In this document: in pieces, positions 3,902 through 35,790 of the stretch
Layout of the letters: the number at the start of each line of letters is the position of its first letter
How positions within the stretch are numbered: the stretch's first letter is position 1
From: Tetracentron sinense
Lineage: Eukaryota > Streptophyta > Magnoliopsida > Trochodendrales > Trochodendraceae
Direction of reading: 5' to 3'
DNA: 64,000 nucleotides
Assembly: GCA_015143295.1 (NCBI GenBank)
Contig: CM026568.1
Location: forward strand, 32,248,441-32,312,440
Position numbers and translations under genes: made by a program
The notes under the pieces: model-generated
The model's input: the letters and a program-made list of their open reading frames with translations, nothing else
Database searches by the model: none
What the model was told of the DNA's origin: nothing

Positions 3902-20492
<16,591 letters not shown>

Positions 20493-22627: not shown

Positions 22628-24853
22628 GCTAGCACTCACCATAGTCATAAATAATTTATTGGAAGGGAGCAATAGTTTGTTAATGGTCAATTTTTATCAC
22701 TAGCACATTGTCGCATACCCAATTAGATGATACACAATGCATGGAACATATATATATATATATATATCCACATATGGTATTAAATTAGGGTTTCTAATCT
22801 TCCAAGACATTAGAGCCCGTTTGGTTCGGATTCTCTTGGGTGATTTAATCGCACATTGTCGCATACCCAATTTGTCAACCAAAATCGTGTTTGGCTGGTT
22901 TTTCGAATCGATTATGCGCGTAATCACTTCCACTTAAAACCGATGTTTCCAAAATCAGTGTTAGGGTGATTACTGATGCGAGAGAAATCAATTGCACTCA
23001 CCAATTCTGTGGGATGATTTTTGACAGAAATATTGATTCGTAAATAACACCCCCCCCAAAACACATATGAGCCATCATTCTTTGACTTTTGAGAAAAAAC
23101 TCCTCTCTTCAAGCTCTGCGACCTGCCCAAGAAGACATCGTCGGTACAAGTACTCCTCAAGCTCGACCTCCTCCTCCTCCTTCTTCTTCTTCTTCTTCTT
23201 TGTCCATGGTAGGGTTGCAACAAATCTCACCTTCTCGATTCTTCTTTATCTTCTCTCTTCCTCTTAGATTTCTTCATCTTTTCTCTACCTCTTCCATGAT
23301 TTCTCTTCGAATGAGTTTTTTCATCTTCTATCTTCTTCTTCTTTTCCAAATCTGTGTTTAGGGTTTTATAATTTGGGGGATTTCTTATTTACTTCTTCTT
23401 CTTGTATTTAATTATTGACATTTACCAGATCTAGGGCCATGTTGCAACCATTAATCGTTGATGTAATAATAATAATAATATTAATATTAAAACCCCTGTA
23501 ACCCTACTACTTTGGAGCTATTTGGATAAACATGGCATGCATAGCTCCATAGAGTCTCAAATTACTGTACTAATTTTGTTTATGCCTTAGTATAAATTTG
23601 AATGAATTCTTGAAACACCACGAATACATTCAACAACAAATTGACAATCACATTCATTATTTGAACATATGAGGAGATGAAAACATTCATTTTTCTTGCT
23701 TTGTTTGTGACTTTGTGGTTTCAATCCAGCCCATGGAGTCTGGTCTCTCTTGAAATTCACATTTTTTTCTTACTAATCTTTACAAATACTGATTAGCTTC
23801 CATCATGTGCCCTTGAAATTTATGGTTCATATATTTCATTTATTATTAATCACTCTCTTTTTCGTTCCACACAACTAAACTACTTGGAAAAATATGAAAG
23901 ACTTTGACATAATGCAACTTATGCTCTTTCTCTTTGGTTTCAGGTTGTGGTTACTGTGAGCGAAAAATTCGTTTTATCAAATTTCCTCATTTGTTGTATG
24001 GAGTTTATTGTTTTTTGTGGGGGATTATCTTTCCAGTCTGAGTAAACTCAGACTGTTAAATTACCTTCCCTTTATTGGGGAAGAACTTCTGATTAAGATG
24101 AAGAATAAAAGAAGAACAGATACTTGAATAAATATATTTTTTTATTTATTCAATGGAGTTGCCTAATTCTCATGTAGGTGTTACAAGTGCCTCTTTGAGG
24201 TCTTTATATGCAAAAAAGAAAAGAGAATGAGGTGGCCATTTTATGAGGCTCACCTGATGTTCTCCATAGCAGAGGAGATCTTCTTCTTCCTTGCTTGCTT
24301 GCTGCTGTACTTTGCTGTTTGAAGGAGATGAGAGAATTTTTCTCTTTCTTCTGGGTGTTTTCCATATTCGTTCGTGTATCTTCGTGTGTGTTTCTTGTGA
24401 AAAACACATTTTATATATTTAAGAGAGAGTCCTTTTTGGAACTCCCTTTTTGACTCCCTTATTTTAGGAAAGTCCAGATGGGATTTTCTATTAGAGGATG
24501 TCAGCTTATGGGTCTTCCTTATCTGGGAGAGTCCTCAAGTTCAAGAGAATCATCTTCTTTTGAGGACTCTTGTACCGGGTTTCCTCTTTTTTTAGGGGGA
24601 ATCCTAGTACCTTTCAAAAAGAAGGATGTTAATCTCATCCTTTCCTAGAATAAAGGATATAGTCCTAATCCTAAAATAATCATGGGGTGTCACGTGGCAT
24701 CACATGAGATTTTAAAAGAGGGGATCCTTATCTTGGGATTCCCTACAACCTGACAGAGAATCTTTTTTATTAAGGATTCTTTGCCTCCCATGACAGTCAA
24801 ATACTGACTGTCAGTTGGGACAGACTGGCCTAAGCCAGTCCACGTATCAGGAT

Positions 24854-25117
24854 GAGACCATAAGTCTCAACCACGGATCACAAGGTGAGACCATGGGTCT
24901 CAACCACGGATCACCAGGTGAGACCATAGGTCTCAATCACGGATCACGAGGAGAGACCACAGGTCTCAACCACAGATCACCAGGTGAGACCATAAGTCTC
25001 AACCACGAATCACAAGGTGAGACCATGGGTCTCAACCACGGATCACAAGGTGAGACCATGGGTCTCAACCACGGATCACTAGGTGAGACCATAGGTCTCA
25101 ACCACGGATCACAGTCT
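24854..25117. repeat. 33-bp tandem repeat, eight units, each with a GAGACC/GGTCTC palindrome
   Basis: Units start at 24854, 24887 and every 33 bp to 25085. Each contains GAGACCATGGGTCTC or a variant, a dyad with 6-bp arms, then CAACCACGGATCAC. The array keeps one frame open because the unit is a multiple of three, but this is not evidence for a protein. It lies in the presumed U3 of an LTR, where enhancer repeats are common. Confidence 0.9.
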
Positions 25118-25156
25118 TACCCGTGGTCTATAGATTAGATCCCGGACATTATATTT

Positions 25157-25455
25157 GATCTGTGAGGACTTGTCCTCAAGAATTGGACATGTGTCAACCT
25201 TATGGAGGCTGGTACTAAATATGATCCACGGAGGTTTTAGCCTCATGGATAGACACATGTCAGTCTCTCGGAGGCTGTCACCAAAGTTGGACCCGTGGAG
25301 TTTTGTCCTCACGGATGAATATGTGTCAACCTCTCGGAGGCCAACACTAAAGGATGGATCCGTGAGGTTTTGGTTCTCACGGATGTGGTATGTGTCAGCC
25401 CATTTGGGAGCTACCACTCAGGGTGGATCCATGGGGTTTATCTTCACGGATCAAC
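25157..25455. repeat. About 67-bp tandem repeat, four to five units
   Basis: Units begin with GATCYRYGRGG-like sequence at 25157, 25223, 25290, 25357 and 25426. Each contains a short inverted repeat around ATCCGTGAGG...CCTCACGGAT and a spacer with ATGTGTCAACCTCTCGGAGG. It directly follows the 33-bp array in the same presumed U3. Confidence 0.85.
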
Positions 25456-26023
25456 TCTGTTGTTGCTTAGCTGGGCAGTATAGTGTCAGCCATCAGCATT
25501 TAATGCTGACAGCTAAAGGTATTGCGCGTGCCACAGACACGCGTGAACTTAACCGTCTCTCCGAGAGGCTGAGATCAGGTGTGTGCAATTGCACACACTT
25601 TTGGGTGATGAACGGTGAAAATTTCACTGCCCACAATTACATATTCTAGCTGACAATTTTTTTTATAGGGCTTGTGTTTTGGTAGTCACTCTTATTATTA
25701 TAGAGCTTGTGTTTCGATAGATGATTCAGTTCAAGCTAATTGTATTATAAGGATATTATTGATTCAATTTGTGTCTATAATATAGGGCTATTATTGATTC
25801 AGTTCCTTTGAAAATATAGGGCTTATTGATTCAGTTCCTTTAAAAATTATCACATCTATCGTGGAAATAACATGCATTATTTGAACACATTTTCTCCATT
25901 TGTCTTATATGAATCTGCTAATTTTGGGGATCTACCTAATTATAAACTTGATGACATGTCATTATTGAGTCTTATGCGAAAGATCATGTCATTACTGAGT
26001 TGTGATTTTCATTTCTAGAGGAC

Positions 26024-26916
26024 ATGGATAACACTTTGCAACTTAATGGTAGTAAGAAGTCGGGGCAAGCACAGTGGTCCAGATATTTGGATCAAATCTT
26101 TATAGAGTGAGTGGTGGATGAAGTATTGAAAGTGAATAGGCCAACTACGTCTTTCAGCAGGATTGGGTGGAAAAACATTAGAGAAGAGTTCAACAAAAAA
26201 AACTGGTAGAAAGTACCAACACTGGCAGTTTAAAAACCACTTAGCAACTCTTAAGGCTAAGTGGAGTTCTTAGAATAAACTTGTTATCTAGACGGGCTTT
26301 GGGTGGGATCCAATAAGAAAGGTCGTTACTGCTGATGAAGAATGATGAGCAGATCTGATAAAGGTACAGTGCTAGTAATTTTAATGGTTAATAATCAAAT
26401 GGTATTACTGACAATCAACACTTCATGGGAATCAATATTGGTAGACCCAACATATGAGAAGTTTAAAACTAACATATGCCCAATGTATAAGGAGATGACA
26501 ATAATTTTTGGAGATACGTGTGCAACCGGTTGGGCTGATCTTGGGACGAGAGAGAGCGAGAAGAGAGAAGATGACCTTGATGCAGTTCTGTGTACACAGG
26601 TGGATCAAACTCCCATAGATGATGGACATAATGATAGGGCTGTGACGCAGATAGAAGATGATCAATTTTCACTTCTCGTAAGCGACGTATTGATTCAGCA
26701 ACTCCTAAGCCGAAGAAAAAAGACACTTTGGTCGAGGTGACACATAAGAGGATGGAACAAAGTACTTCCTCGGGAGTTACTCCATCTCCTGTTAGTCTAG
26801 AGGATCATTTTTTCATGACAAGTTGTATGCACTTGATTAATGGAATTGAGGATCCTAACTTTTGTCGTAAGGGTATCTTCAATGCAATAGGGATCTTCTC
26901 TGGCAACGAACATTGA
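26024..26916 (+). pseudogene. Broken ORF1 of PIF/Harbinger, Myb/SANT-like DNA-binding protein
   Basis: From the ATG at 26024 the frame has a TGA after about 28 codons, then a frameshift near the A run at 26200. In another frame it reads FKNHLATLKAKWSS and, after two stops, TGFGWDPIRKVV, which is the LKxKW...GFGWDP pattern of the plant Myb/SANT-like (L10-interacting) domain. A further stop replaces a Trp codon near 26340. Downstream an open stretch (26342-26740) includes DPTYEKFK and a long acidic tail. The order and content fit PIF ORF1. It is inactive. Confidence 0.75.
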
Positions 26917-27299
26917 AGGGAGACTTTTATAAACATGAGGCCCGAACATCGTTTAACATGATTTGAGTCATTTGAGCAGTCTTAATTGATGCATGGATGT
27001 CGTGGTTATGTATTTGGAAAAACTTGTGTTATTTTCTTATAGTCTTTCCTTTGTAGGAAACATGGATGTTGTTGATGCTATGTGAACCTTTTATTTGGAA
27101 ACTAATATTTTTGTGTGGAATATGTTGTTTTTATGCTACTTTGGTTTGAAACATATTTCGTTATTTTATTTAGCTTGTTCATTTATATGCAATTGTTTCA
27201 AAATTAATTAGGTAATATGAACCAATTTAACTGTAGCTATATGTGTGCACAACGCTATCATTCATTATACATGTCTAAAATTTCATGCAGAGATTCAAT

Positions 27300-28392
27300 A
27301 CTATCAGGATATGACTTCTTACCTAAAGTGTTTGATGGGAACCCAATTAGGTGTTATAAATTTTTCAGATTGATTAAATAGTATTCTTAAGATTATGTTC
27401 AATACTCAAGGAAAGAGGATGGTTGAAATATACAAAAGAAGCATGTGTGTTGAATAACAAGTTGTCATATTTGTTTGAGTATTGGACATAATGAAAGAAA
27501 TCGGTTAATGCAATAACGTTTCTAACATTTGGAGAGACAATCAGTCGACATTTTCATAATGTCTCAAAGGCAATGATTAAATTTTCCCGCGAAATAATAA
27601 CTCCTCAATCCTCAGTCCGTTCCTCTACAAATTTTGAACAATAAAAAGTATCATCAATGATTCGATGTAAAACACTTTGATTGTATATTATTATATTCTC
27701 ACTCTTTTTTATAGGTTAGACATAACATGTTTTAATGTTTTACCTAAGATTGAATAAGAGCAATTGATGGAAGAAATATTAAAGCAATAGTTCAATCCGA
27801 AAAACAAATTTCTTACCGCAGAAGAAAGGGAGTTATTACACATAACGTAATGGCTGTGTGTTCATTTAACATACGCTTTACGTATATTCTTTCTGGGTTG
27901 GAGGGAACTGCAAATGAATCTAGAATTTTAATTAGATGTTCACAACAACAAAAAGAAATTCCTGCATGCCCCTGCAATTAATAAAAATCTTAAAAGAGAA
28001 CATTGTGGATACATATATTTTTATTTGAAACTAAATATAATTTTGATTGCAATAAAATATTATGTTATTGGTGCTGGCTATCATAATACGAGGGGATTTC
28101 TTGCACCTCATCGTGGGATATGATATCATTTACAAGACTATAGAAGTGGTAGGGGTCTATCTAATGCAAACGAGTTATTTAATCGTGCACATTCCTCATT
28201 AAGGGAACACTGCTTTAACGTATTGAAAACACAATTTTCTATGTTAAAGCGTATGACTCCATACCAATATCTGAGACAGATATTGTAGTGGTTGAGTGTA
28301 TCTCCACAACTTTATTCGTTAAGATGCTCAAAAAGATGACCTGTTCGAAAAGTATGAAGTAGACGAATTGGTAGTTGACAACAACGCGTAAT
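27300..28392 (+). pseudogene. Broken DDE transposase (ORF2) of PIF/Harbinger
   Basis: Fragments in different frames match the transposase order: GHNERNR near 27484, GETISRHFHN near 27530, AIDGRNIKAIVQSEKQ near 27763 with the first catalytic Asp, KGVITHNVMAVCSF near 27825, EGTANESR near 27901, GFLAPHRGI near 28093 and ELFNRAHSSLRE near 28172. The second catalytic residue, normally Asp in GTANDSR, is Glu here, and the segment around the third acidic residue has lost several codons. Many stops and frameshifts interrupt it. Confidence 0.85.
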
Positions 28393-28727
28393 CTCGTGGA
28401 AGTACTTCAACTGTGGATGAATAAGTGCATCAACAATAACAACCAGAGATGGGAGCCTATAGGGATAGCCTCACCGAATGAATGTGGAATACATATATAA
28501 GTGACAATTATGTTTTTCACTAGACCTTGACAGATTTAAATGTTTTGGATAATAGAACGCCGTAGCATGATCACTATACTTTGTTATTATATGGAGAAGA
28601 TGAATTATATTTTTTGTATTAACTCTTATATGTCTTTGACAATTTATTATTTATTGCAGTAACATTACTCTTGAATTTAGTATTTTTAAATAAGTGCATT
28701 GATGTGTGGTTGAAATTATACAGTATT

Positions 28728-29114
28728 ATGTCGAAAAGGGGTTTCCAACACTTGATATGTCCATGTGGTATGAGTTATATGCGAGTCCATGAGGCTAAAA
28801 CAAAGCAAAACTATGGTTGTTTATTTTATAGATGTCCACTTTGGCATGTAAAAATTATATCTCTATTATTTGTAATTTCATTGCATTTCCTTAAATCATT
28901 ATTTGTATTTTGAATGCAGAATCACTCTGGATCTTTCATATGGGTTGATGAAGAAGATGATGGTACTCAGAGCACAACAGTCCAACATAACAATAATATG
29001 ATGAAGGAACGAAGGAGATACCGAATGCTCCTGTATGCATCATGTGGATGCATAATAATTTTAGTTGTTATTGCTTTTTTTATGTCACTGTTATGGCTTA
29101 TTGTATTCAAGTAA
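28728..29114 (+). CDS. Small GRF-type zinc finger protein with C-terminal membrane segment, inside the PIF element
   Basis: Two exons, 28728-28847 and 28920-29114, join in phase 0 through a 72-bp intron (donor GTAAAA, acceptor TGCAG) to give 104 residues with no stop. The N-terminal half has the GRF layout: CPCGM at 11-15, NYGCLFYRCP at 28-37 and SFIWVDEEDD at 45-54 just after the splice. The third metal ligand, usually Cys before the FFxW, appears to be replaced by Gly or Ser. Residues about 73-104 begin with a basic cluster (ERRRYR) and continue as a long hydrophobic stretch, likely one membrane helix. Small GRF proteins with such tails are common in plants, with function unknown to me. Whether this is cargo of the transposon or a host gene it engulfed is open. 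I judge expression unproven. Confidence 0.55.
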
Positions 29115-29458
29115 ATACATATGTCACTTTTTATGGTTTGTAACTATTATCTTCAAAGTAGAGACATGTATCACTTTTATGATAACAATTGTTTACAAAT
29201 AGAGTATTTTTTGTTAACTTTCAAGGGATGAATAACATTTTCAGAATTTTAGATAAACAATCAATTTTATGTTTATAGTATGATCTAAACGCAATTATTT
29301 TGCACATAATTGATTTCCTACAAATAATTGATTATAAACAAGATGCAATCCAAACATGATTATTTATAACAACGCTTTCAGCAGACAACGCTTATTCATG
29401 ACAGCGTTTTCTGTATAATCAATTGTGATTGCAATAATCCGAACCAAACATGCTCTTA

Positions 29459-30239: not shown

Positions 30240-30595
30240 GGTGAGATTGGATTACAACCAATCACGATTGAACTCAGGAAGAGTTCAATCGCACCCACAA
30301 GTGAACACGTGTCCCTTTTAACCCCTATTAACCCTGGTTAAGATCTGATAATTCTTAGAGTTCAATAATCTAACCTTAGTTTTTAGATTTTTAAAAATAA
30401 TTAACCATATGTTTAAAATTTTCTGACCACGTGGTTAATTTTTTTTCTGAAAAACAATGTTAGATTGTTGAACTATAAGGGTTAGTAAATCTTAGCCATA
30501 GTTAAGAGGATTAAAAGGGACACATGTTGACATGTGGCTGTGATTGAACTCTCCCCGAGTTTAATCACAATTGGCTATGATCTGATCTCCTCGTG
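30240..30595. mobile_element. Foldback MITE with long imperfect inverted arms
   Basis: The left arm from GTGGGTGAGATTGG through GTGTCCCTTTTAACCCC (about 30240-30330) pairs imperfectly with the right arm ending at about 30595. Inner segments CTAACCTTAGTTTTTAG and its counterpart also pair. Related single arms occur at 34365-34455, so this is a dispersed family. No target duplication was determined. Confidence 0.6.
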
Positions 30596-30624
30596 GGTTA
30601 ACTTTGTCGGGATAGAATCCTTAA

Positions 30625-30967
30625 TGTCACGCGCATATATTTAGTCCCACACCAGTCATGTACTTGGTGTTATTGGGTCATTGGTGTGGAAGTAGACAAC
30701 ATCTAAAGTAGCTAGTTATTTTGGTTGGCAAGTGCTCCGTGATAAGTGGTATCATAGCCAACCCAGGGACATTAGGGGTTAGGATGGATTCACAGCACGT
30801 TGAGACTCAAAAGGTGGATCCCCTTGACGGGGGTGTCAAGGTTTAGGCGGGGGAGCCTGTCACGCGCATATGTTTAGTCCCACACTAGTCATATATTGGG
30901 TCATTGGTGTGGGAGTAGACATCTTCTAAAGTGACTAGTCATTTTGGTTGACAAGCACCATGTGACA
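30625..30967 (+). mobile_element. TRIM: miniature LTR retrotransposon without coding region
   Basis: Two direct repeats, 30625-30745 and 30859-30967, both start TGTCACGCGCATAT and contain TTTAGTCCCACAC and GGGTCATTGGTGTGG; the second ends TGACA. Immediately after the first is TGGTATCATAGCC (30747-30759), one base from the TGGTATCAGAGCC primer site for initiator tRNA-Met. Immediately before the second is a purine-rich GGCGGGGGAG. The internal part is only about 110 bp. Flanking 5-mers CTTAA and TTAGA do not match well, so the insertion is old or the ends are slightly off. Confidence 0.85.
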
Positions 30968-31435
30968 TTAGACTCTTGTCTGAGAGATGTGTTGTAGATA
31001 TAGGTTGAAAAATCTTTAGATTGAGGTACTTGTTTGGTGAGGAATGCGCTTCAACCTGTTTCCTTCATTTTTATTATCATCATTCCTTTCTTCCTTTTTT
31101 TTGGTTCACCCATCCAGTCTTTTATCATCTCCTCACATTTATCTTTTACGTGCTTCCCCGAATTATATTCTCTCAATAATGACTAGGGAGTTTGCACTTT
31201 GCAAGTTTTAGCTTCAAGAACCTCGCATTGTGATGGTGGATTGGTGGGGTAACCAAAGAGGGTTACGTTGCTATTTGCTAGCGACAAGCTCTTCATGGAA
31301 GGAAGCAAATCGTCCGTGTTCTTCCCTATTTTCTTCTCTGTGGCCATGAGTGTTTAAAGAGGCAACAGATGTCTGGTAGATGCTCGGTTTCCCATTTCGG
31401 GCACCACTTTGCACGACGCCATGGTAAGGCATTTA

Positions 31436-31809
31436 CGTAGGAGAGTGAGAGCATGCATTGCACATTCCATTGAGTGGTACACGGTGCACACACACCTTCA
31501 AAGCTCGTCACATGTCATCTTTGACATTCATTAACTGTGATTAAGATTTACTCATCCCTAAGGTTAAATATCTAGCCTTAGTTTTTAGAAAAAATATTTA
31601 AACAAAAAAATAACCTTGCTTATGATTTTGTTATTCATGTAGTTAAATTTTTTTGAAATATTTTTTCTAAAAGCTAATGTTAGATATTTAACCTTAAAAA
31701 TGAGTGAATTTTAACCACAATTAAGGATGTCAAATAAAACATGAGGTGAGCTTAGGAGGTGTGCATGTACCACCCAACATAATGCGCATGTATGCTATCA
31801 CTCCCCTAC
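31436..31809. mobile_element. Tourist-like foldback MITE, copy 1
   Basis: Long imperfect inverted arms run from CGTAGGAGAGTGAGAGC on the left to GCTATCACTCCCCTAC on the right, and TTA flanks both sides (31433-31435, 31810-31812). Inner arms contain GTGCACACACACC and TTAACTGTGATTAAG. The copy at 46903-47277 is almost the same length and has the same arm structure. TTA duplications suggest mobilisation by PIF/Harbinger transposase. Confidence 0.7.
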
Positions 31810-31835
31810 TTAAGTGCAAAGAGTAGTCTTTTTTT

Positions 31836-32025
31836 GGAACTCAGAGTGTCCCCAACCCTTTGGGTCAGGACTAATCCCCGAGGGTGCGACTTGAGCTCGC
31901 AACCCGCCACACTAGGTAAGTCCGGGTAAACCCGTGCGAGGTTGGTCACAAAGGGGGAGTGAGAAATGGAACCCAGGACCTCCCACTTGGGGAAAGGCCC
32001 AGGAACCATTGGTCTCTTATCGTTT
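31836..32025 (-). mobile_element. SINE, same family as 44166-44374, inverted
   Basis: Its 3' portion (CCCCAACCCTTTGGGTCAGG, then CTAATCCCCGAGGGTGC) is the complement of the 3' part of the SINE at 44166-44374. The B-box-like GGGTTCCATTTC lies at about 31976-31965 on the minus strand, and a T run at 31829-31835 is the complement of the A tail. I found no clear target duplication, so boundaries are approximate. Confidence 0.75.
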
Positions 32026-32103
32026 AAACATAAGATCTCTTGTCTTGTACAAATTTAAAAATAACAATTATACAAGTATAAGGGCATCAGATTACCTCTG
32101 GTG

Positions 32104-32262
32104 CACGCCCGAGGCGTCCATTCATCAAGGGCATGTGGTGATAAAAAGGGGAGAGATATCAACTGGGGAGAAGTCAAAAAATAGGGGAGAAAATGAATTG
32201 ATTTCTTCCCTATTTAGCGCCACATGCCGCATGTTGAATGGACGCCTGAGGTTGAGCCTCGT
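32104..32262. mobile_element. Palindromic MITE, family F, copy 1
   Basis: CGAGGCGTCCATTCA at the left is the inverted counterpart of TGAATGGACGCCTGAGG at the right. The core GAGATATCAACTGGGGAG followed by AAGTCAAAA matches, in reverse, the core of the element at 47631-47827. Exact ends are uncertain. Confidence 0.6.
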
Positions 32263-34310
32263 GTCACGATCAACTTTTTGATTTTGCGGAACAACCGTGC
32301 GGCGCTTCAATCATCTCATGATCTCGGCCAACCTTACACCATTACACTATCGTTCACTGAACCGACCCAACGTCTTGTGCTACAATGCTACGACAAGGTA
32401 CGATCCACTACCGAGTCTCATCCGCTAAGTCACGCTCAGCTGGTTTACGCATTACTTCATCGTGTCGCACCCGACACTCGTCCAACACATAAGGTTCCCA
32501 CGTCACCGAAGTTCCGTCTCGCGCATCTCTCATGATGTTAAGGTTTCTCGATCAAGCCGAACATCCAACACGGTCCGATACTCTCGAACACGACTATCGG
32601 TCATCCCCATGCATCACGAATAGCTTGGGAGCATCACTGCCCCGTTTACCGAGCATTGAGGGCATAACGCCCACAATGCAATCATCGGTCCTATGACCGA
32701 GTATCCCAACTATACCTCGCATCCCTCCTAGACGATCATGATGCATATCGCACGCTTAAAGGCCGAACTAGGGTGAAACCATTTGCCCGAAGGCTCTTGC
32801 GCAGTGTTAGAATATCTGTCTCCTTTGCACCACCCTTAGATGCTCCAACAACCATCTAAGGAGACTCAAAGATCCCTTTTAGGATCCTAGAGCCCCCCTA
32901 ACTCCTTTGTGGTTGCTCATTAAGTGGGCCCAGATGTGTCACAAGGAAATGTAGAGCTACGTCATTCTCCTCAAGGTGGATGATAAACCTTTCACCCTTA
33001 ACCAGAAGGAAACATCACCATTGCTGCTGGAGTCATACTGGTCTTTTACAGAACAATATATTGAATATCTACAAACTGTCTGTATCATTGAAGTCGTATT
33101 AACTTTCTTTTCGAATGAAGGTACTATCGGTCATACTTTCAACATACTATGTGGGCCCCACAACACTCGCCCATATGTGTCTAACCAAGCACCAAACTCA
33201 AGCTTCACTCCATAACTTTTCATGTGCACTTCACCCAAACCACAATACCTCGTACACAACATCAAGACATCTCCATATTTCTTTACTTCGGTACCTTAAC
33301 ACTAAGGCACTAACCTTATACCACACTGCGCTATTACGTGCATAGTGCATCACCTATCTTCTAGGCACCGCATTGACTTCCCTTGCCTATGGCCATCCCG
33401 GCCCATTATCACACTCATGGCAGAACTCAACAACTTTGACCGTGACACCCGGGCGTGTACCAGAGGTAATCCAATGGTAAGAGATCCAGAGCTTCAAACA
33501 CCAAGTCATGGGAAAGAAGGCATGTCCTTATCTGATACGTTGAAAGTAGTTTGTAGTTATAACTACTTCTGGATTGATAGAAGGTAAAAGCTGGATTGAT
33601 AGAATCAGTGTTAGGATCCAGTCCGATCACGGAAGATTTACGTCCTAGTATTGGTTCGCCAGCTTAGATACGGTTCTGCCTCCCCTCAATGGGAGCATCG
33701 GAAATCATAAAAATAATCATGGTATATAGAGTCTCAAAGTCAAGTGGGGTCAGTTCGATGGTTAACTGCACACACAGGAGCGTACTCTAGTATCATGCCC
33801 CAAGCATGACAACCGTCCACATGTTTACCTTTCTGTTCACATGCACGCATGTGAACAACACCTACCCCACCCCTACCAAGCAGATATCGTTTAAAGAAAT
33901 CATTTATTGTGAAAAATTACCAAAAATATATATATAATATTTATTATATAGGTTTGGTAACCGCGAATGTTGTTAATGTTCACACAAGATGAACAAAATG
34001 CGACATTTCTTAACATTTTAGAGAAGTTATTTTTTTGGGTAATGACATGCTTGTAATTATACTTTTTTTTTAAAATAAAATATCACCATTTTTTTTTTCT
34101 TTTCATAATTACAAGAATATCATAAAATCATTACTTTTTTCACCCTTTACGTTATTGCTATTAACACTCTATTTGTTAATATATATTCTCCTTATAAGTT
34201 TATAAAATATTAGTACAAAACACATGTCTTTTTCTAATTGAAAACAATTAACATTTTTTTTTGCCTTTAAAAAGTGAGTTTAAAAAAAAAAAATGCAACT
34301 AGCATTACTT
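32263..34310. other. GC-rich then AT-rich intergenic DNA, possible retrotransposon remnant
   Basis: 32263-33660 is notably richer in GC and CpG than its surroundings and begins TGTCACGATCAAC, as many LTRs do, but I could not find a matching CA end, target duplication or coding domain. 33890-34310 is AT-rich. A nearly palindromic GTTCACATGCACGCATGTGAAC lies at 33835-33856. Confidence 0.35.
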
Positions 34311-34329
34311 GTGACTAGCGGTGGCACAT

Positions 34330-34930
34330 GCGATGCACGTGAGAGCGAGCGGAAGGAGTTAACTATAGTTAATAAGAGTTAAAAGGGACACATGTTAACT
34401 CGCAGGTGCGATTGAACTCTCCCTGAGTTTAATCGCGATTGGTTGTGATTCTATAGATGAGCAAGAGATAGTTTGGGAATTAAAGTAAATTATTAAATCA
34501 AAGATGTGTTTTATATAAGGGTAGTTTGAGAATTTTAGAAAAATCAGGCTATGCCCGCCTCTCGCATTATAATAGTAAAGATAATAATTCCCAAAATCAA
34601 GTAAACTACATACAAGAGCTTTAGCTCAAAAGAGAACCCAAGCTCCAAAAATATGCATTGAGATTTACGAATTATAAATATTAAATAAGAAAATTTTGTT
34701 CACATAAATATATTTATGTGATTTCGGAAATGCTCCTTTCAAGGCATGCTTATGGGGAGATCAGGTATCTCTTAACCAGATATTTCGTCCCTCTTTTTAA
34801 CACATATTAATTGTGGTTAAGATTTATTCATTTAACCTTAATTTTTAGAAAAAATAAATATTAATATTTATTTGTTTGAACTAAATCAAGCTTAACTAGG
34901 GATGAAATGGGAATACATTTAATTATATGA
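34330..34930. repeat. Partial foldback-MITE arms upstream of the kinase gene
   Basis: 34365-34455 matches the right arm of the element at 30240-30595 (AAAAGGGACACATGTTAACT and GATTGAACTCTCCCTGAG). 34800-34865 resembles the inner TTAATTGTGGTTAAGATT arm of the Tourist-like family. Neither has a complete partner arm. Confidence 0.5.
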
Positions 34931-35665: not shown

Positions 35666-35790
35666 ACGGTCATTAAAATTTCAAATTGATGTATTTGGTC
35701 TGAATTATTGCAACGGGTTGGTTTCTACAGCAGAGCCCGTGTATTGTTTGATCTGGTCGAAGGGGGTTTGAGTTAATTATACTGAATTTG

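Follow-up and report, generated by a model that had tools for sequence, protein, structure and literature searches.

PIF/Harbinger transposons encode two proteins, both of which are required for movement (PMC2836001), and most groups of the superfamily carry two open reading frames (ORFs; PMC4482050), as stated in the accessible portions of these two papers; in the main text available for the latter, a survey, the word GRF is absent. Here we describe a 64,000-nucleotide stretch of the Tetracentron sinense genome (assembly GCA_015143295.1, contig CM026568.1, positions 32,248,441 to 32,312,440; hereafter the window, with coordinates counted from its first base) that holds an old, immobile PIF/Harbinger copy, in which the ruins of both usual genes are followed by a small, unbroken third frame encoding a GRF-type zinc finger with a hydrophobic C-terminus.

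Several described systems share features with this locus. Elements of lineage M, such as MtMaster and DcMaster, likewise have ORF1 upstream of the transposase, a 3-bp target duplication and ends of the form G(N)5GTT, and the five two-gene Medicago members among the rows listed measure 4048-5519 bp, as compared with 5023 bases here once a nested piece is set aside (PMC2213677); this is a likeness of layout, size and ends. No third gene is described for them, the terms zinc, ORF3 and third all being absent from the available portion of that paper's main text. Harbinger elements that carry an additional gene are described in the accessible part of PMC12730594, where PHISTA elements of rust fungi carry a TET/JBP dioxygenase and a third protein, and HarbingerS elements of oomycetes carry a SET methyltransferase. 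Their cargo, however, is a DNA- or histone-modifying enzyme and their hosts are not plants, and PHISTA elements differ further in having TA duplications and no Myb/SANT protein. An earlier note, made from the letters of this window, had called a membrane-anchored zinc-finger cargo unusual for the superfamily: the two-gene description is indeed the usual one, but extra genes in Harbinger elements have already been published. Finally, the Pack-PIF elements of maize and rice resemble the present copy in having PIF ends around gene-derived DNA, but are non-autonomous and hold captured gene fragments (PMC8903248, available portion).

The element spans 22813-29455 (6643 bases). Its left terminal inverted repeat (22813-22832, plus strand) pairs with the right one (29436-29455, minus strand) at 18 of 20 bases, both conforming to the G(N)5GTT start that has been used for mining plant PIF/Harbinger elements (PMC2213677, available portion), and each end is flanked on its outer side by TTA (22810-22812 and 29456-29458, neither assigned to a strand), i.e., by a 3-bp target duplication of the TWA type. 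The earlier note had paired the same ends, and the same pairing emerged on re-analysis. A chance pairing was also checked: on both strands of the 64 kb, the left end has no match with five or fewer mismatches other than the right end, and its next nearest matches, at three places, have six. Between the ends lie, in order on the plus strand, Myb/SANT-like pieces (ORF1), pieces of a DDE_Tnp_4 transposase, and the small GRF frame. The assignment of 22813-29455 to a single PIF/Harbinger copy is firm; within the window there is no second copy of the element, and the GRF protein matches nothing but itself. Next to the left end is an exact 22-base direct repeat, whose outer copy (22703-22724) stops 88 bases before the element and whose inner copy (22851-22872) starts 38 bases inside it; it is unlikely to have arisen by chance and is perhaps filler DNA from the repair of a break.

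Both transposition genes are broken, as had been claimed: their profile matches come in pieces, in several frames and with internal stops. The Myb/SANT-like domain of ORF1 is split between 26072-26206 (Myb_DNA-bind_3 profile positions 1-46, E 1.9e-5, one internal stop) and, in another frame, 26193-26342 (positions 42-91, E 1.9e-8, two internal stops), both on the plus strand and both exceeding the Pfam cut-off. The transposase is recognizable on the same strand at 27790-27951 (DDE_Tnp_4 positions 10-66, E 0.037, no internal stop) and, in another frame, at 28073-28288 (positions 82-148, E 4.8e-5, two stops, one of which is the last codon of the piece), with scores of 14.1 and 23.5 bits, respectively, that fall below the cut-off of 24.8; the change of frame between these two pieces may be an intron. 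Four further stretches that by eye look like parts of ORF1 or the transposase (26339-26740, 26662-26916, 27488-27639 and 28321-28520) gave no family match, nor did a search of the PDB with one transposase piece return any match. Codon 28070-28072 reads Gly at the Asp position of V-D-A-G-Y, which we take to be the transposase motif with a catalytic Asp, and on that assumption one catalytic residue of the transposase is apparently gone.

In contrast to these genes, the third frame (28728-29114, plus strand) is complete from ATG to stop and encodes 104 amino acids without an internal stop. It comprises a first exon with most of the GRF zinc finger (28728-28847, the ATG at 28728), an inferred GT..AG intron of 72 nucleotides (28848-28919), which is a multiple of three and would add one in-frame stop if retained, and a second exon with the end of the GRF domain, an acidic linker, a basic stretch and the hydrophobic tail (28920-29114). 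When spliced, the frame matches Zn_ribbon_GRF (PF06839) over profile positions 2-44 of 45 with 25.7 bits (E 1.3e-5), as compared with 19.3 bits unspliced and no match for exon 2 alone; because splicing adds 6.4 bits across the junction, the two-exon reading is sound. The ATG lies downstream of the transposase, although not 300-400 bases after it as the earlier note had it, but about 440 bases past its last Pfam match and about 230 past its C-terminus, the latter placed by eye. Mean hydropathy over residues 85-103, the best stretch of 19 residues, is 3.19, a value that only 0.22% of 5000 random stop-free frames with the local composition attain, whereas 1.6 is reached somewhere in 68% of 5000 random frames of the same T-rich composition; the C-terminus is thus likely a tail anchor, even though T-rich DNA makes moderately hydrophobic stretches cheap. 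The initial proposal of an unbroken GRF frame in two exons, ending in a hydrophobic tail, is confirmed. None of 500 shuffles of the frame was free of disablements (stops or frame shifts), which argues that it descends from a real gene, and very probably from a GRF/tail-anchor gene that lay inside the ends of the element. A separate nested element around the frame was considered and rejected, no inverted pair closely bracketing it among the 25 of 31 pairs listed. Relatives of the GRF protein and of a transposase piece were sought in collections of viral and genome contigs, and of the GRF protein in plasmids as well, but none were found in these collections, which are not meant for plants.

Although open, the frame appears to have lost residues on which a GRF finger depends. 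In a PDB search with its first 52 residues, the sole match was NEIL3 (7jl5; domain i-Evalue 7.9, whole-sequence E 0.076). When the full frame was used, NEIL3 came fourth of 13 rows (E 0.37); the remaining 12, all creatine or arginine kinases matched over residues 38-75, were taken as chance. The 7jl5 chain presumably holds the GRF domains of NEIL3, and we take a central G-R-x-F to be the signature of the finger and its last Cys to be a zinc ligand. In the NEIL3 alignment, weak as it is, G-R-Q-F-Y stands opposite G-C-L-F-Y, so that the frame reads G-C-L-F in place of the signature with Cys for Arg, and Q-C-G-F-F-E-W stands opposite H-S-G-S-F-I-W, leaving Ser where both NEIL3 repeats have the last of the four ligands. 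Loss of the Cys is the stronger point, since the NEIL3 repeats vary the Arg and keep the Cys, and a finger lacking the fourth ligand probably does not function. The Cys that replaces the signature Arg is coded by TGT, the codon expected once a methylated CpG within an Arg codon has undergone a C-to-T transition, and the observed/expected ratio of TpG+CpA is 1.46 in 28500-29455, whereas the four other stretches for which it was computed gave 1.16-1.22. With the signature Arg and one of the zinc ligands apparently gone, the protein of this copy probably no longer binds zinc well, and the frame is probably decaying like its neighbors. These apparent losses speak against selection on this copy.

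The earlier note had read the contrast in stops differently, as suggesting that the small frame was kept by selection or acquired later. We counted disablements as the fewest stops and frame shifts needed to read a block, which is a lower bound, over blocks set by eye that family matches cover only in part. ORF1 (26024-26916) requires at least seven in 298 codons, and the three transposase blocks at least one, two and four in 51, 84 and 121 codons, giving at least 14 in 553 codons for the transposition genes versus none in 104 for the GRF frame. At this pooled rate, 104 codons are expected to hold 2.6 disablements, and the probability of finding none is 0.07 (Poisson) or 0.09 (conditional); it is 0.02 and 0.07 against the Myb block alone, and 0.06 and 0.09 against the transposase blocks alone. 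When counts are confined to the Pfam-matched pieces (215 profile positions), there are six disablements, three stops and one shift in Myb and two stops in DDE, the DDE frame change being excluded as a possible intron, and P is 0.055 and 0.094; the DDE pieces alone, with two in 124, give 0.19 and 0.30, and the Myb pieces alone have four in 91. All of these values precede any correction for having picked the frame as open.

The counts themselves are biased in two directions. Among 200 shuffles of each block, the Myb block required a mean of 4.6 disablements versus the four observed and the last transposase block 4.7 versus four, so that both are at the ceiling of the count; the corresponding means are 11.7 versus seven for ORF1, and 2.0 and 3.8 versus one and two for the other two transposase blocks. 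As lower bounds, the counts favor the argument for selection or later acquisition. Weighing against that argument, the frame was noticed because it was open, and its splice sites were picked with the frame in view. Other open runs occur within the element, one of 75 codons in the transposase (27754-27981) and one of 133 codons in the ORF1 region (26339-26740, lacking a family match). The stop contrast is suggestive and not proof, and the step from it to selection or later acquisition is unproven.

We hold it probable that this is an old PIF/Harbinger copy whose ancestor carried a small third gene downstream of its transposition genes and in the same orientation, a gene that is now decaying along with the element. 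Several observations weigh against this. The GRF frame is seen in one copy, and may belong to that copy and not to a family; its profile score lies 0.2 bits below the Pfam cut-off of 25.9; and the residue losses are read from a weak NEIL3 alignment in which the second repeat itself has Lys for Arg, showing that this residue varies. The CpG observed/expected ratio around the frame (0.54) is not below that of a kinase exon (0.41) or of the nested piece (0.40), and lies close to the values elsewhere in the element (0.61-0.63); the signs of methylation-driven decay are therefore mixed and do not clearly support it. Lastly, the pooled stop contrast leans, albeit not significantly, toward a frame that is younger or kept, and the lean is stronger against the Myb pieces alone (P 0.01 and 0.047). 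This same contrast would be accounted for if the frame were a working host gene, domesticated and kept by selection while the element around it died. We consider domestication improbable, since the pooled values stay at 0.07-0.09 even before correction for the choice of frame, the DDE pieces alone give 0.19-0.30, and the frame has apparently lost both its signature Arg and a zinc ligand.

The gene might also have entered only once, a host GRF/tail-anchor gene having been taken into this copy or a small subfamily in the manner of Pack-PIFs and riding there as a mere passenger. Captured gene pieces do occur in PIF elements of maize and rice (PMC8903248, available portion), and the inferred intron of the frame is what a capture at the DNA level would retain; yet the Pack elements in that account are non-autonomous, whereas here the remains of both ORF1 and the transposase lie beside a frame that is complete from ATG to stop and no fragment, so that we regard a one-off capture as rather unlikely. 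It is far less probable, to the point of being remote, that the ends derive from two different miniature inverted-repeat transposable elements (MITEs) with unrelated genes between them. The ends do differ at two of 20 bases, and ends of this kind abound in plant genomes, but the same TTA stands on both sides, the left end has no comparable partner elsewhere in the window, and the ends enclose, in one orientation, the two genes that typify the superfamily.

The ancestral element presumably moved by cut-and-paste, as is usual, with the ORF1 protein and the transposase acting on its ends and, if it did carry this third gene, with the GRF frame travelling along. The layout of GRF finger, acidic linker, basic stretch and C-terminal anchor suggests that the intact protein would have been tail-anchored in a membrane with its finger free to face the cytosol or nucleoplasm, where the finger might have contacted nucleic acid or proteins encoded by the element, possibly in the role of an accessory factor; the role of the protein is the weakest step of this scheme. 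A bolder proposal, possible but in our view doubtful, is that a plant PIF/Harbinger lineage regularly carries a tail-anchored GRF protein that is active in its life cycle and that might tether transposition complexes, or the DNA of the element, to the nuclear envelope or the endoplasmic reticulum (ER). Plant annotations contain many small GRF proteins that end in a hydrophobic stretch, and those termed 'At4g04775-like' appear similar in size and layout to the protein described here; if the third gene proved regular, these abundant genes would be transposon-derived. Were such a membrane-anchored third protein to recur, it would be a new component of a superfamily that has been studied in depth, and could account for a group of plant GRF proteins about which little is understood. 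The present case, being one dead copy, is only a lead, which would grow if many small GRF genes were found to sit in PIF elements.

In Asteraceae, the enriched domains include GRF-type fingers as well as transposon domains (PMC10359422), which fits a connection between GRF genes and transposons but does not show it, and the GRF domain is named, but no more, among the domains of NLR proteins (PMC11734081), both in the accessible parts of these papers. In the available portion of PMC6059424, which includes At4g04775, there is nothing on transposons, and that of PMC9179366 contains none of the terms GRF, zinc or third. Among the matches listed in searches of the open-access literature, two of which showed 20 of 854 and 20 of 239 papers, none treats a GRF gene carried by Harbinger elements. 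The GRF frame is a real and possibly new third gene, or a passenger, in an element of a known kind, represented by a single dead copy.

The copy also appears to have been invaded. A piece of roughly 1.6 of its 6.6 kb, at about 24016-25635 and not assigned to a strand, has TGTGGG...CCCACA ends, a higher GC content (0.436 versus 0.29-0.36 in the rest of the element) and, at 24853-25113, a tandem array of 7.9 copies of a 33-bp unit with 89% matches. This piece is probably a later nested insertion with tentative boundaries, resembling by eye a solo long terminal repeat (LTR), a reading that is itself tentative because no convincing target duplication accompanies it, the single four-base match lying at shifted ends.

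Outside the element, six families of direct repeats link 9526-10522 with 16437-17414 at a spacing of about 6.9 kb and with 82-95% identity, and are possibly the two LTRs of an old retrotransposon; they sit between two pieces that by eye look like both ends of one DEAD-box helicase gene (minus strand, 20485 to 3870). On the other side, between the element and a kinase-like gene at 35752, the interval 30243-34454 contains several repeats, some inverted and some direct, that are 44-96 bases long and 79-89% alike, and likely holds further small mobile elements.

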